Source: Streptomyces sp. 11x1 (GTDB lineage Bacteria > Actinomycetota > Actinomycetes > Streptomycetales > Streptomycetaceae). From it: DNA of 64,000 bases. Positions within the stretch are counted from its first letter, which is position 1, and each line of letters opens with the position of its first letter. Below are positions 54,350 through 59,052 of this stretch, piece by piece. The notes under the pieces are model-generated. The model was not told the DNA's origin. It was given only the letters and a program-made list of their open reading frames with translations, and did no database searches. The stretch spans positions 9,945,001 through 10,009,000 of the forward strand of contig NZ_CP122458.1 in the NCBI RefSeq assembly GCF_032598905.1. Direction: 5' to 3'. Made by a program: the position numbers and the translations under genes.

Positions 54350-54735
54350 GTTACGGGCCGATGTACGTGCCGAGCCGACGTACCTGCCCCGGCACGCAAT
54401 GCCCGAGCCGGCGTGCGTGCCGGTGCCGAGGCCATGCCCGAGCCTGCGTGCCCGGGCCGACGCAGTTGCCGAGCCCACGTGTGTGCTCCGGCCGGCGCGT
54501 GCCCGGGCCGATGGTACGCCCGGGCCGACGCACATGCCGAGCCGACGTGTGTGCCTTGGCTGACGCGATGCCCAAGCCTGCGTGCCTGCCAGGGCCGACG
54601 CTGTTGCCGAGCCGACGCGTGTGGCCCGGGCCGACGCAAAGCTCACGCCGGCGTGCCTGCCAGGGCCGACGTGATGCCCGGGCCGATGGCACGCCCGGGC
54701 CGACGCGCATGCCTGGCCCCGCGTGGCCGTCACCG
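54350..54735. repeat. Degenerate tandem repeat array, ~17-bp unit
   Basis: About 385 bp of imperfect repeats of a ~17-bp unit (consensus-like GGGCCGACGCnnATGCCC alternating with GAGCCGACGTGTGTGCC), making ~34-bp higher-order units, at least 20 degenerate copies. For example GGGCCGACG recurs at several steps. It falls just downstream of the graspetide ATP-grasp gene and has no supported reading frame. Confidence 0.8.
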
Positions 54736-54794: not shown

Positions 54795-55778
54795 TCAGGG
54801 GGCCGAGCGGATGCGCCCGTGGTGGCGTGTCCTCGCCCCCGGGTCCTCCTCGGCCAGCCACTCGGCGACGCTGTGGGCGATCGGCTGGCCGGTGTCCATC
54901 TCCACGAACCCGAACTGGCCGGACTGATTGCACTCCAGGAACCACCAGATCCCGTCCGCGTCCTCAGCGAAGTCGAAGGCACCGTAGGCGAGTTCGGCGT
55001 CCCGCAGATAGGCGCGCGCGGCGGCGGCGGTGCGCGCCGGGACCTCCACCGGCCGCCAGGGCGCGGTGGAGGCCGCGAAGCGGACGTCGACTTCCTCGGG
55101 ATGCGCGTCCGGGGCGACCGCCTTGCGGGCCGCCAGCATGCGGTCGCCGACGACGGTGAGCCTGATGTCCGCCGCCTTGGCGATCCGGCGCTGCAGCAGC
55201 GTCGGTCCGAACGCCACGGCGGTGAAGTCGGTGCCGGGCGCGACCCGACTCGTGGGGACTGTGCGGGCCGGCTCCTGCGGGTGGGTGCCGGAGACCGGCT
55301 TGACCACCAGGTCCGGGAAGCGTTCGGCGAAGTCGCGGGCGGCCTGCGGGAACGTGGTGATGAGCGTGGCCGGGACGGGGAGGCCGCAGCGCTGGGCGTG
55401 CCGCAGCTGCCACGGCTTGTGGCGGGCCCGCCGGGCCGCGTCCGGGTCGTTCATCCAGCGGACCCCCGTGCCGCGCAGCATGCCGTACAGGGCCTGCGAG
55501 GACTCCTCGGTCAGCCAGGCGGACGGCTCGCCGACCCGGCTGGCCGGGACGCCCGGCCGGCGCAGCCAGATGGAGCGCAGCCCGCTCATGCTCACCAGGC
55601 GTCCGCCGGCGGACAGATGTCCGCGGAAGGCGCCGTGCACATACTCGCCGGAGAGGGCCACCCCGCCTGGGAGGTCGGCGGGGTCGAGCCGGACCACCGG
55701 GACGCCGGTCCTGTTCAGTTGTGCCACCACCAGGTCCGCCGTCACATCCTGTTCGCTGGTGAGGATCAGCACCGTCAT
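54795..55778 (-). CDS. tgmB: ATP-grasp ribosomal peptide maturase (TgmB/MvdD-like)
   Basis: 327 aa. ATP-grasp ligase: an N-terminal domain (VLILTSEQDVTADLVVAQLN), lysine in LVVKPVSGTHPQ, and the metal-binding ECNQSGQFGFVE near the end. It belongs to the family that makes omega-ester or omega-amide crosslinks in graspetide RiPPs. It starts 16 bp after the precursor gene, same strand. No methyltransferase (TgmC) or protease is adjacent. Confidence 0.93.
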   Translation of the reverse strand: MTVLILTSEQDVTADLVVAQLNRTGVPVVRLDPADLPGGVALSGEYVHGAFRGHLSAGGRLVSMSGLRSIWLRRPGVPASRVGEPSAWLTEESSQALYGMLRGTGVRWMNDPDAARRARHKPWQLRHAQRCGLPVPATLITTFPQAARDFAERFPDLVVKPVSGTHPQEPARTVPTSRVAPGTDFTAVAFGPTLLQRRIAKAADIRLTVVGDRMLAARKAVAPDAHPEEVDVRFAASTAPWRPVEVPARTAAAARAYLRDAELAYGAFDFAEDADGIWWFLECNQSGQFGFVEMDTGQPIAHSVAEWLAEEDPGARTRHHGRIRSAP

Positions 55779-55794
55779 CGTCGCTGGTCCGCGT

Positions 55795-55986
55795 TCAGTC
55801 GTCGAAATGGGTCTTCGAACCCGCGGTGGACGTCGTCGCCCCCAATTCCCGCATAAGACCCTGGTCGTGAGCGGCTATCCGCCCATCGGCGAGCACGTTC
55901 AACTGCAGCCCGGAGTCGTAGGTGTACGGAGCGCTGAACTCCAACTGCTCAGTGGAGCGAGCGTAGTTGAGCACGAACAGTCGCAT
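55795..55986 (-). CDS. tgmA: ATP-grasp-modified RiPP precursor (graspetide, TgmA-like)
   Basis: 63 aa. The N-terminal leader RLFVLNYARSTEQLEFSAPY holds the family F-x-LNYAR, E and PYxYD leader motifs; QLNVLADGR follows, and the C-terminal core is GATTSTAGSKTHFDD, rich in Thr/Ser/Lys acceptors and ending in the acidic FDD. This is the composition expected for side-chain ester or amide crosslinking by the TgmB ATP-grasp. ATG at 55986 with AAGGAG ahead. Confidence 0.92.
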   Translation of the reverse strand: MRLFVLNYARSTEQLEFSAPYTYDSGLQLNVLADGRIAAHDQGLMRELGATTSTAGSKTHFDD

Positions 55987-56164
55987 CGTTTCTCCTTGTT
56001 CGGGACCATCCGGAAAGCGGATGGTGACGCTCCGGCCTCCCTCTGTTCGGCCGGGTCGCAGTGTCTCCAGGGAGTTATACGAATCGAACGACTGAATGGT
56101 TGCCTCATCTTCTCGGAGGGCTGACTTCATGCACCGCGAGGGGTCAAGAGGCAACGGTGAGTGG

Positions 56165-57397
56165 TCAACTCGCGGCCGAGTGGCGCGTGGCGAAGGCGAT
56201 GACGGAGGCGAACGCGGCGAGTACGGCGACGCTGGTGAGTGCGGAGGGCAGCGAGAACCACTCGGCCATGAAACCGATCGCGGGCGGGCCGAGGAGCATG
56301 CCGAGGTAGCCGAGCGTGGAGGCGGTCGCGACACCGCCCGGACCGGCCATCGCGCCGGCCCGTTCGATGGCCACCGGGAAGATGTTGGCGAGGCCGAGAC
56401 CGGTGACCGCGAAGCCGAGGAGGGTCGCCCAGACCGAGGGGGCGAGGGAGCCGAGCAGCATGCCGGCCGTCGCGGTGGCCCCGCCGGCCACGAGCACGGT
56501 GGACCTGCCCAGACGTTCGAGCAGGGTGGTTCCGGTGAGTCGGCCGACGGTCATGGCGAGCGCGAAACACGAGTAACCGATCGCCGCGACACCGGGTGAG
56601 GCGTCCAGGTCCGCCTCCAGGTGCAGGGCGCCCCAGTCGGCCAGCGCCCCCTCGCCGTAGGCCGTGCAGCCGGCGATCAGGCCGAGGACGACCACCAGCG
56701 CGCGCGTACGGCCGTCCAGGCGGCCGGGGACCCGCGGGCCGGTCTCCCGGGCGGGCAGGCCAGGAGCGCGGTCGAGGGGTGCGGGGGGTTCGTGGCGCAG
56801 CAGGGCGGGCGCGGCGACGGCGGTCACCAGGAGGCCGATCACGGTGATGCCGAGCAGATGGCGGGTGGGGGAGAGTGAGCCCGCGACGAGGCTGCCGAGC
56901 CCGGCCCCGACCATGCCGCCGAGGCTGAACGCGGCGTGGAAACCGGGCATGACGGGCCGCCCCAGCGCGGCCACCAGGTCGACGGCGGCGCTGTTGAAGG
57001 CGACGTTGATCCCGCCGAAGGCCGCGCCGAACACCAGGAGCACCGCGCCCAGGGCGAGCGCCGAGTGGGTGAGCGGGGGCAGGGCCACGCTGAGGGACAG
57101 CAGCACGGCGCAGGCGACCGTCACCGGGTGGCTGCCGAAGCGGCGGCAGAGGCGGCCGGTGAGCATCATCGTGATCACCGCTCCGGCGGACACGCCCAGC
57201 AGGGCGAGCCCCAGGGCGCCGGGCGAGGCGCCGGTCTGCTCCTTGATCGCGGGGATTCTGACCACCCAGCCGGCGAAGACGAAGCCGTCGAGGGCGAAGA
57301 AGGCGGTGATGGCGATACGGAGGGTTCGCAGGTGTGAGGGTCCGGCGGGGTGGCCCGGCACGGCGTTGTGCGATCGGGTTTTGTTTATTCGCGGCAC
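56165..57397 (-). CDS. MFS transporter
   Basis: 410 aa with twelve predicted membrane segments and the MFS signature GRLCRRFGSHPV in the loop after helix 2. Family close to sugar/fucose or drug MFS (FHAAFSLGGMVGAGLGSL). ATG at 57397. It may export the graspetide, being immediately upstream in the same direction (179 bp), but this is conjecture. Confidence 0.92.
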   Translation of the reverse strand: MPRINKTRSHNAVPGHPAGPSHLRTLRIAITAFFALDGFVFAGWVVRIPAIKEQTGASPGALGLALLGVSAGAVITMMLTGRLCRRFGSHPVTVACAVLLSLSVALPPLTHSALALGAVLLVFGAAFGGINVAFNSAAVDLVAALGRPVMPGFHAAFSLGGMVGAGLGSLVAGSLSPTRHLLGITVIGLLVTAVAAPALLRHEPPAPLDRAPGLPARETGPRVPGRLDGRTRALVVVLGLIAGCTAYGEGALADWGALHLEADLDASPGVAAIGYSCFALAMTVGRLTGTTLLERLGRSTVLVAGGATATAGMLLGSLAPSVWATLLGFAVTGLGLANIFPVAIERAGAMAGPGGVATASTLGYLGMLLGPPAIGFMAEWFSLPSALTSVAVLAAFASVIAFATRHSAAS

Positions 57398-57789: not shown

Positions 57790-57859
57790 CCCCCGGCCGG
57801 CACCCAGTGGCTACATCACTAGGGCCGGACCTCTCGTCGTGTCCTCGGAAGGAACCCCC

Positions 57860-59052
57860 ATGTCCGGCTCCGCCCTGCGCCTCGCCGTCGAACTCGACGG
57901 CGAGGCGCCCCCCGGCGGCCTGGCGCCGCGCCGCCCACGCTCCCGACCAAGTGCTCACCCCGCGAGGCGTGGCCCGGGTGGCCGTCGCCGCGGAGAGCGC
58001 CGGGTTCACCCCGCTCACCCGGGACGACGGCCTGCTCCCACCCGCCGCCGCGCCCGACACGGTCGGCCGGATCGGCGCGGTGGAACGGGCCGCGTTCGTC
58101 GCCGCGTCGACCGCCGTCGTCGTCGGCGTCGCTCCCGTTGTTCCGCTGACCGTCGCCCGGGCCCTCTGGGACGGCTGGATGGACGGCGCCGCCTCCGGCT
58201 CGCCCGGTGCCTTTCCACCTGCGGCGCCCGGTGCCGTACGCCGACTGAGCCACCGGGGACGGCAGTTCGACGTCGACCTGGTGCCCACCCTGCCGCGCAG
58301 CGCCCAGGGGCATCCGGTGATCTTCCAGGCCGGAGACTCGGCCGAGAGGCGGGACTTCGCCGCCCGCGACGCCGATGTCATCTTCTCCGCGCACGGCGAG
58401 GACTCCGACGACGCGCTCGCCTTCGCCGAGGACGTCCGGGCCCGCCTGGCGGCCGCCGGACGGCCCGAGGGCGATCTGCGCATCCTCCCCGGCACCGAGA
58501 TCATCATCGGGGCCACCGAGGAGGAGGCACAGGAGAAGAAGCGCTGGATCCGCCGCCAACAGGTCACCCCCGCCTCGGCGTTGGGTATCGCCGGGCTTCT
58601 GTGGAACCGGGACCTCTCCGACCGGGACGTGGACGGGCCGCTGCCGAAGGAGGACCCGGTCGTGGTCGAGAACGACGGTTCCTTCGGCGCCCGGCCGCGT
58701 CGCCGATCCGCACAAGGTGGTCGCCGGCTGGCGGGAGAAGGCCGAGGCGGACGGCTGGTCGCTGCGCGAGACCGTCATCGCGCTCGGCCCGCAGTGCGGC
58801 CGTGCCGGCACCCCCCGCCGGCCTCGCCGACCGGTTCGCCCCCTGGGTGCGGCACGGTGCCGTCGACGGGTTCAACGTCACGCCGTACCTGATCCCCGAC
58901 GGGCTGGACGACATCGTCGATCTGCTCATCCCGGAACTGCAGGAACGCGGCGTCTACCGCACCGCGTACACGGGGACGAGGCTCCGCGAACACTCGGCCT
59001 GCGTGAACCCCTCACTCACCGAGCCATGCTCGACGGTCCGCGGGCGGGCTGA
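57860..59052 (+). pseudogene. LLM-class flavin-dependent monooxygenase, four frameshifts
   Basis: Fragments of one ~396-residue SsuD/NtaA-like protein occur in successive frames. ATG 57860 opens SGSALRLAVELDGEAPP; after a run of C at 57908-57913 it continues AAWRRAAHAPD...; after 58695-58696 RVADPHKVVAGWREKAEADGW; after 58811-58816 GLADRFAPWVRHGAVDGFNVTPYL; and, after a missing base near 58993, LGLREPLTHRAMLDGPRAG to the stop at 59052. Removing one C at each of three C-runs and adding one near 58993 restores the whole frame. Either a decayed gene or sequencing indels. Confidence 0.85.

Follow-up and report, generated by a model that had tools for sequence, protein, structure and literature searches.

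Among the closest described relatives of the locus analysed here are the graspimiditides (group 13: fuscimiditide, amycolimiditide, albusimiditide and SsfA), the products of TgmABC systems; in these four characterised examples the target of the methyltransferase is a loop Asp, according to the excerpted text of PMC13001092. Fuscimiditide itself is described, in the portion of PMC12291112 available to us, as a product of ester chemistry with nested Thr–Asp rings. A second point of reference is the Strep_pep family (PF14404), which the available part of PMC8939145 lists as an ATP-grasp-linked precursor family and traces to a 2009 analysis. The precursor studied here matches Strep_pep over its full length and comes from the same genus, and we found no difference from that family; a search of the open-licence literature returned no study of this peptide, its product or its function. 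With the graspimiditides it shares the TIGR04186 precursor model, a related maturase and the expectation of Thr–Asp esters. It differs from them in having no PIMT-type methyltransferase and no Asp following the Thr-rich stretch, in acceptors that are adjacent and placed at the C-terminus, in a nearly fixed core and in a separate maturase branch.

The window, by which we mean the whole 64,000-nt stretch of Streptomyces sp. 11x1 DNA that was analysed, comes from a genome of 10.67 Mb in two contigs. The following features are referred to below:

54795–55778, minus strand: tgmB, ATP-grasp ribosomal peptide maturase of 327 aa with an ATG start, TIGR04187 (GRASP_SAV_5884)
55795–55986, minus strand: tgmA, 63-aa graspetide precursor with an ATG start, PF14404 (Strep_pep) and TIGR04186
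55798–55842, minus strand: presumed core GATTSTAGSKTHFDD, residues 49–63 of the precursor, with D62 and D63 as its only acidic residues
55870–55929, minus strand: leader motif PYTYDSGLQLNVLADGRIAA, residues 20–39 of the precursor, with a putative recognition role
55992–55997, minus strand: ribosome-binding site of tgmA, AAGGAG, five bases 5' of the ATG, as read from the sequence
56075–56104, minus strand: promoter-like element GGCAACC-N16-CGTATAA, containing GTTCGATTCGTATAA, conserved upstream of tgmA

The preliminary description had reported a 63-aa precursor and an ATP-grasp maturase 16 bp apart and had assigned them to the graspetides; coordinates and spacing (55779–55794) agree with this, and curated family models recognise both genes. 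The tgmA product matches PF14404 (‘Ribosomally synthesized peptide in Streptomyces species’) with 127 bits over model positions 1–63 of 63 and TIGR04186 (‘putative ATP-grasp-modified RiPP’) with 30.7 bits, the cut-off being 25 in both cases, and tgmB reaches 401 bits with TIGR04187, whose cut-off is 350, as a maturase of a graspetide family should. Since these scores exceed the cut-offs, the pairing is not due to chance. The arrangement is that of a graspetide, with a maturase-adjacent precursor, a leader motif and Ser/Thr/Lys donors preceding Asp/Glu acceptors, and not that of a pamtide or imiditide (precursor plus PAMT only), as the partner is an ATP-grasp enzyme. The precursor ends in TTSTAGSKTHFDD, and the core put forward earlier is correct at its C-terminal end (residues 49–63), its start being presumptive. 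A genome-wide search returned one TgmA and a single TgmB over cut-off, the second TgmB match lying far below at 24.9 bits.

Structural relatives were found for the maturase. The best PDB relative of tgmB is 9bou_A, a close relative with a solved structure (527 bits across residues 1–315), for whose code we found no mention in the open-licence literature; the PDB matches that follow are AMdnB, CdnC and other ATP-grasp ligases with at most 89 bits. Five residues, K160, D204, R206, E282 and N284, are invariant in a 21-row maturase alignment made up of close relatives, every row being at least 77% identical to the tgmB of the window. We take K160, D204-x-R206 and E282-x-N284 to be the ATP/metal and substrate contacts. 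A PDB search with the tgmA precursor gave no relative at E 1.

The locus is an ordinary member of a Streptomyces graspetide family already annotated in Pfam and NCBIfam, and many of the database relatives listed are already named ‘putative ATP-grasp-modified RiPP’. Of 392 Streptomyces genomes, 219 gave a PF14404 match at E 0.001, and in 215 the match exceeded the cut-off; its absence at cut-off from 177 of the 392 means that the genus as a whole does not depend on the peptide. A sample of the class comprising 296 genomes gave 19 PF14404 matches, all from Streptomyces, which is one of the 114 genera represented. On re-examination of 13 genomes, four had only sub-cut-off matches inside long frames, and one similar sub-cut-off match (L153) proved on translation to be a segment of a protein kinase. 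For closer comparison we used 78 loci of 16 kb from 75 genomes, including that of the window, which were hand-picked from the matches listed and therefore lean to strong matches; nine loci with the weakest matches were added to give 87, one of them (L159) covering 6.1 kb. In all 78 loci a tgmA-like and a tgmB-like gene lie on the same strand no more than 217 bp apart, although the TgmB match of one locus (L057) is partial at 232 bits. The nearest named precursors, among the best 80 of 217 loci, are those of S. adelaidensis, S. sp. MNU76, S. scabiei and S. europaeiscabiei. In 40 of 52 hand-tabulated long-contig cases (uniform expectation 17.4) the precursor is less than 1.5 Mb from the end of its contig, a position that suggests the chromosome arms. 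The precursor is also found on three of 72,556 plasmid records, and on plasmid NZ_CP130725.1 (L276:4989–6537) tgmA and an ATP-grasp gene are followed by an overlapping third small gene.

A point absent from the preliminary description is that the core of Strep_pep is nearly fixed and the leader variable. We pooled the 78 loci, the query and the best 120 of 227 database matches, which gave 199 sequences, 179 of them distinct; one of these, of other length, was left out, leaving 178 precursors of 63 residues, a set that is skewed to close relatives, the loci having been hand-picked among the matches listed. Residues T51, S53, A55, S57, T59, H60, F61, D62 and D63 are unchanged in all 178, and so are D24, Q28, N30 and G35 of the leader motif, D24 being replaced by Ser in one weaker relative (L141). 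Substitutions within the core affect K58 (Ala or Gln in 10), T52 (Ala in 2) and T54 (Lys in 5), so these three are not obligatory donors; T51, S53, S57 and T59 are never replaced among these 178. Pairwise amino-acid differences among 62 loci, a set without near-copies, amount to 6% for core residues 50–63 as against 38% for residues 1–22, 21% for 23–39 and 43% for 40–49, in an ungapped comparison from the C-terminus in which a leader indel would inflate the differences. Where the core residue is the same, 36% of comparisons among these 62 loci have different codons, so the DNA itself does vary under the fixed residues. The core pattern also ends all 80 named loci (the best 80 of 217, from a search that relied partly on core words). 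Taken together, the near-frozen core in the copies read points to a constraint on the product itself.

Exceptions to the fixed core do occur: genome G303 carries a tandem pair of precursors with the altered cores GPTQSSAGSKTHDDDTD and STSTAGSKVHRDDDDHEYVH, in which position 51 is Thr or Ser and, in one of the two, T59 is replaced by Val. In that locus (L156:7615–8051) the tandem PF14404-like precursors lie beside one TgmB and have more acidic C-termini; it is the only clear core variation in an open frame among the loci examined. In genome G085 (L157) the tgmA reading frame departs from the core, and THFDD is kept in the other seven of the nine weakest-match loci.

The dehydration and ester chemistry of the window peptide is inferred from studied graspetides. 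In the proposed scheme TgmB would bind the leader motif of TgmA and would convert the Asp62 and Asp63 side chains into acyl phosphates at the expense of ATP, and Ser/Thr hydroxyls in TTSTAGS would attack these to give up to two omega-ester rings, at −18 Da per ring and −36 Da in total. Any protease and exporter acting afterwards would be unlinked. No methyltransferase step is expected, as every Asp in the core is one of the two presumed to form rings. As T50, T52, T54 and K58 vary, the candidate donors are T51, S53, S57 and perhaps T59, with the first three as the most likely. A lactam at K58 was considered and rejected, as this residue is replaced in 10 of 178 precursors. Plesiocin-type hairpins have an adjacent pair of acceptors, and the window core resembles them in offering two neighbouring acidic residues as likely acceptors; it differs from them in being single and non-repeated, and its acceptors are C-terminal Asp. 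With two acceptors, the number of side-chain esters is limited to two; a third ester would require the C-terminal carboxylate, whose participation is proposed for SsfA in the available part of PMC10787088. As a weak guess, the rings might be nested as T51–D63 and S53–D62, which would resemble the stem-loop of fuscimiditide with its Thr7–Asp18 and Thr3–Asp22 rings, as given in the accessible text of PMC12291112.

Upstream of tgmA, the loose pattern G[AC][AG]ACC-N15/16-CGTA occurs within 250 nt in 64 of the 78 loci, compared with 25 of 3900 mononucleotide shuffles and 22 of 2487 other windows, and the octamer TTCGATTC occurs upstream of tgmA in 60 of 78; these counts are inflated by shared ancestry, and the surrounding bases are conserved too, though less. 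The 56 distinct stretches around the octamer give the consensus GTRAGGMAACCAWYCACNCGTTCGATTCGTATAAG. In shape the element resembles ECF sigma promoters. The strict element, AACCANNCANNCGTTCGATTCGTATAA, has a single site in the genome at up to three mismatches, so no regulon was found at that stringency, and the idea of the element as a regulon mark was dropped. Control by bldA through TTA codons was also discarded, such codons being present in none of 78 tgmA and 2 of 78 tgmB genes.

The absence of TgmC next to the pair, recorded in the preliminary description, extends to the surrounding 16 kb (L138), where none was found. TgmC was likewise found in none of the 78 loci with the own-genome query, which as a positive control recovered TgmC in 29 of 29 TgmC loci, and in none of the 87 with six TgmC queries. 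TgmC is over cut-off in 28 of the 61 Streptomyces genomes searched. A TgmB-like gene is present in 26 of 29 TgmC loci, in the stretch covered, and scores 99.5–178 bits against the TgmB of the window; no window-like precursor was detected in the TgmC loci by phmmer. In a tree of the maturases, one 100/100 branch parts 40 two-gene rows, drawn from the 87 loci, from 26 TgmC-linked rows, with a long-branch warning that includes L156, the placement of which is unsure. Precursor tails of the TgmC-linked loci were read from frames just upstream of TgmB without requiring DG; two loci gave none, and the other 24 of 26 were legible and all have, as judged by eye, an Asp directly after the Thr-rich stretch; the residue that comes next is Gly in 17 tails, Ser in 5, and Asn and Arg in one each. 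Residues 49–63 of the window precursor contain D62 and D63 only and offer no loop Asp as a methylation site. Both D62 and D63 are presumably needed as acceptors, and with no Asp beyond this C-terminal pair a TgmC-type methyltransferase would lack a free substrate.

We weighed these results against the possibility that the pair is a TgmABC (graspimiditide) system whose TgmC has been lost or is kept elsewhere in the genome, an explanation that we consider very improbable. It can draw on the shared TIGR04186 model, which the precursor passes, and on the presence of TgmC-like genes in the genome; TgmC-like genes do exist outside the locus, but in settings of another kind. The best TIGR04188 (TgmC) match, at C1:6.855 Mb and 3.1 Mb away, reaches 273 bits, below the cut-off of 380, and the gene sits between a globin gene and an FHA-domain gene, with a VWA gene next; no precursor–maturase pair was seen beside it. 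This setting resembles the FHA–VWA PAMT setting described in the available part of PMC10787088. A second TgmC-like stretch, at C1:116–117 kb, is fragmented and lies beside a radical SAM gene. This part of the genome (L100:6582–10366, C1 about 113.6–117.4 kb) holds the radical SAM gene, a short peptide ending in FQVIADLDVDVAESASCSCSAGDDQPY that no NCBIfam model matched, a further open frame and the fragmented TgmC-like methyltransferase. It is possibly a decayed FxLD-like RiPP locus. Against a lost or unlinked TgmC stand its absence near any of the 87 loci, the separate and fully supported side of the tree formed by the two-gene maturases tested, and the extra Asp that every legible TgmC-linked tail has (in DG in 17) and the window core lacks. 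The view of the pair as a minimal form of the three-gene system is thus not upheld; as read from these sequences, the two-gene arrangement is the usual one in a separate family spread across Streptomyces and not a reduced TgmABC.

Export and proteolysis bear on where the product might act. The MFS transporter gene at 56165–57397, earlier named as a possible exporter, immediately precedes tgmA on the same strand at a distance of 178 bp, which is what speaks for its exporting the product. It is present in only 5 of 78 loci, however, the window and its four closest relatives, and these five also share the TetR, F420-type and geranylgeranyl-reductase-like (flavin) genes that flank the window pair, so that we think a role in export hardly credible. 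Among ORFs of at least 80 aa within about 6.5 kb of the pair, no cluster besides tgmB and frames overlapping tgmA/tgmB occurs in more than 31 of 78 loci. A Pfam scan of nine recurrent neighbours at E 0.001 left three without a match; the matches of the other six include an AraC-type regulator, two molybdopterin-enzyme subunits, an aldo/keto reductase and DUF5133, and we have taken these neighbours for lineage synteny. No recurrent neighbour of at least 80 aa could be a dedicated protease, in line with the earlier remark that no protease is visible. Two further observations concern the surroundings of the pair: a degenerate G+C-rich tandem repeat with units of about 17, 35 and 68–71 bp lies at 54368–54713, between tgmB and an MDMPI-type gene, and the luciferase-like FMN monooxygenase gene at 57807–58990 has its PF00296 part and its C-terminal TIGR03860 part in different frames and looks frameshifted.

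As the core is near-constant while the leader varies, the product probably meets one conserved target in the producer, and it would then probably be a signal or internal effector, not an arms-race toxin. Conservation of the core is as compatible with a role in protease inhibition or metal binding as with signalling. If the fixed core belonged to a secreted protease inhibitor like the microviridins, it would serve neither as signal nor as internal effector; two ester rings would make a rigid loop, and microviridins are potent against serine proteases in the accessible text of PMC13039773. We judge this unlikely, as no exporter or protease is common to the loci and an inhibitor directed at outsiders would be expected to vary, which the core hardly does. 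A narrower form of our preferred reading, to which we would give about the same low probability, is that the peptide stays in the cell with a cytoplasmic target and that leader removal may never occur. The lack of a recurrent linked protease or exporter in the 78 loci would fit, as would a 63-aa product with no signal peptide apparent by eye. Unlinked processing is common among RiPPs, however, and weakens this argument. The native protease is likewise not established for any graspimiditide in the portion of PMC12291112 available to us.

Based on these observations, we propose with good confidence that the window contains a chromosomal, two-gene, Streptomyces-specific PF14404 graspetide locus, whose product is predicted to carry up to two ester rings at D62/D63 and would probably meet a conserved target in the producer. 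Family membership, the gene pair, the absence of TgmC, the near-invariant core and the conserved upstream element are observed; the ring pattern, the target and the role of the product are guesses. A more far-reaching proposal, which we put forward tentatively and as doubtful, is that one near-invariant cyclic peptide in more than half of Streptomyces, with a frozen core and a drifting leader contrary to the usual RiPP pattern and with a dedicated bipartite ECF-like promoter, may act as a genus-wide signal or internal regulator rather than as an antibiotic. If true, this would be a graspetide that serves the physiology of its own producer.

The locus itself adds a further copy to an annotated family, and its possible importance lies in that family: a RiPP family with a core more conserved than its leader, a precursor found in 215 of 392 Streptomyces genomes, and two genes alone common to the loci read. 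Isolation of the cyclised peptide would give a single structure to represent the product of most carrier genomes.
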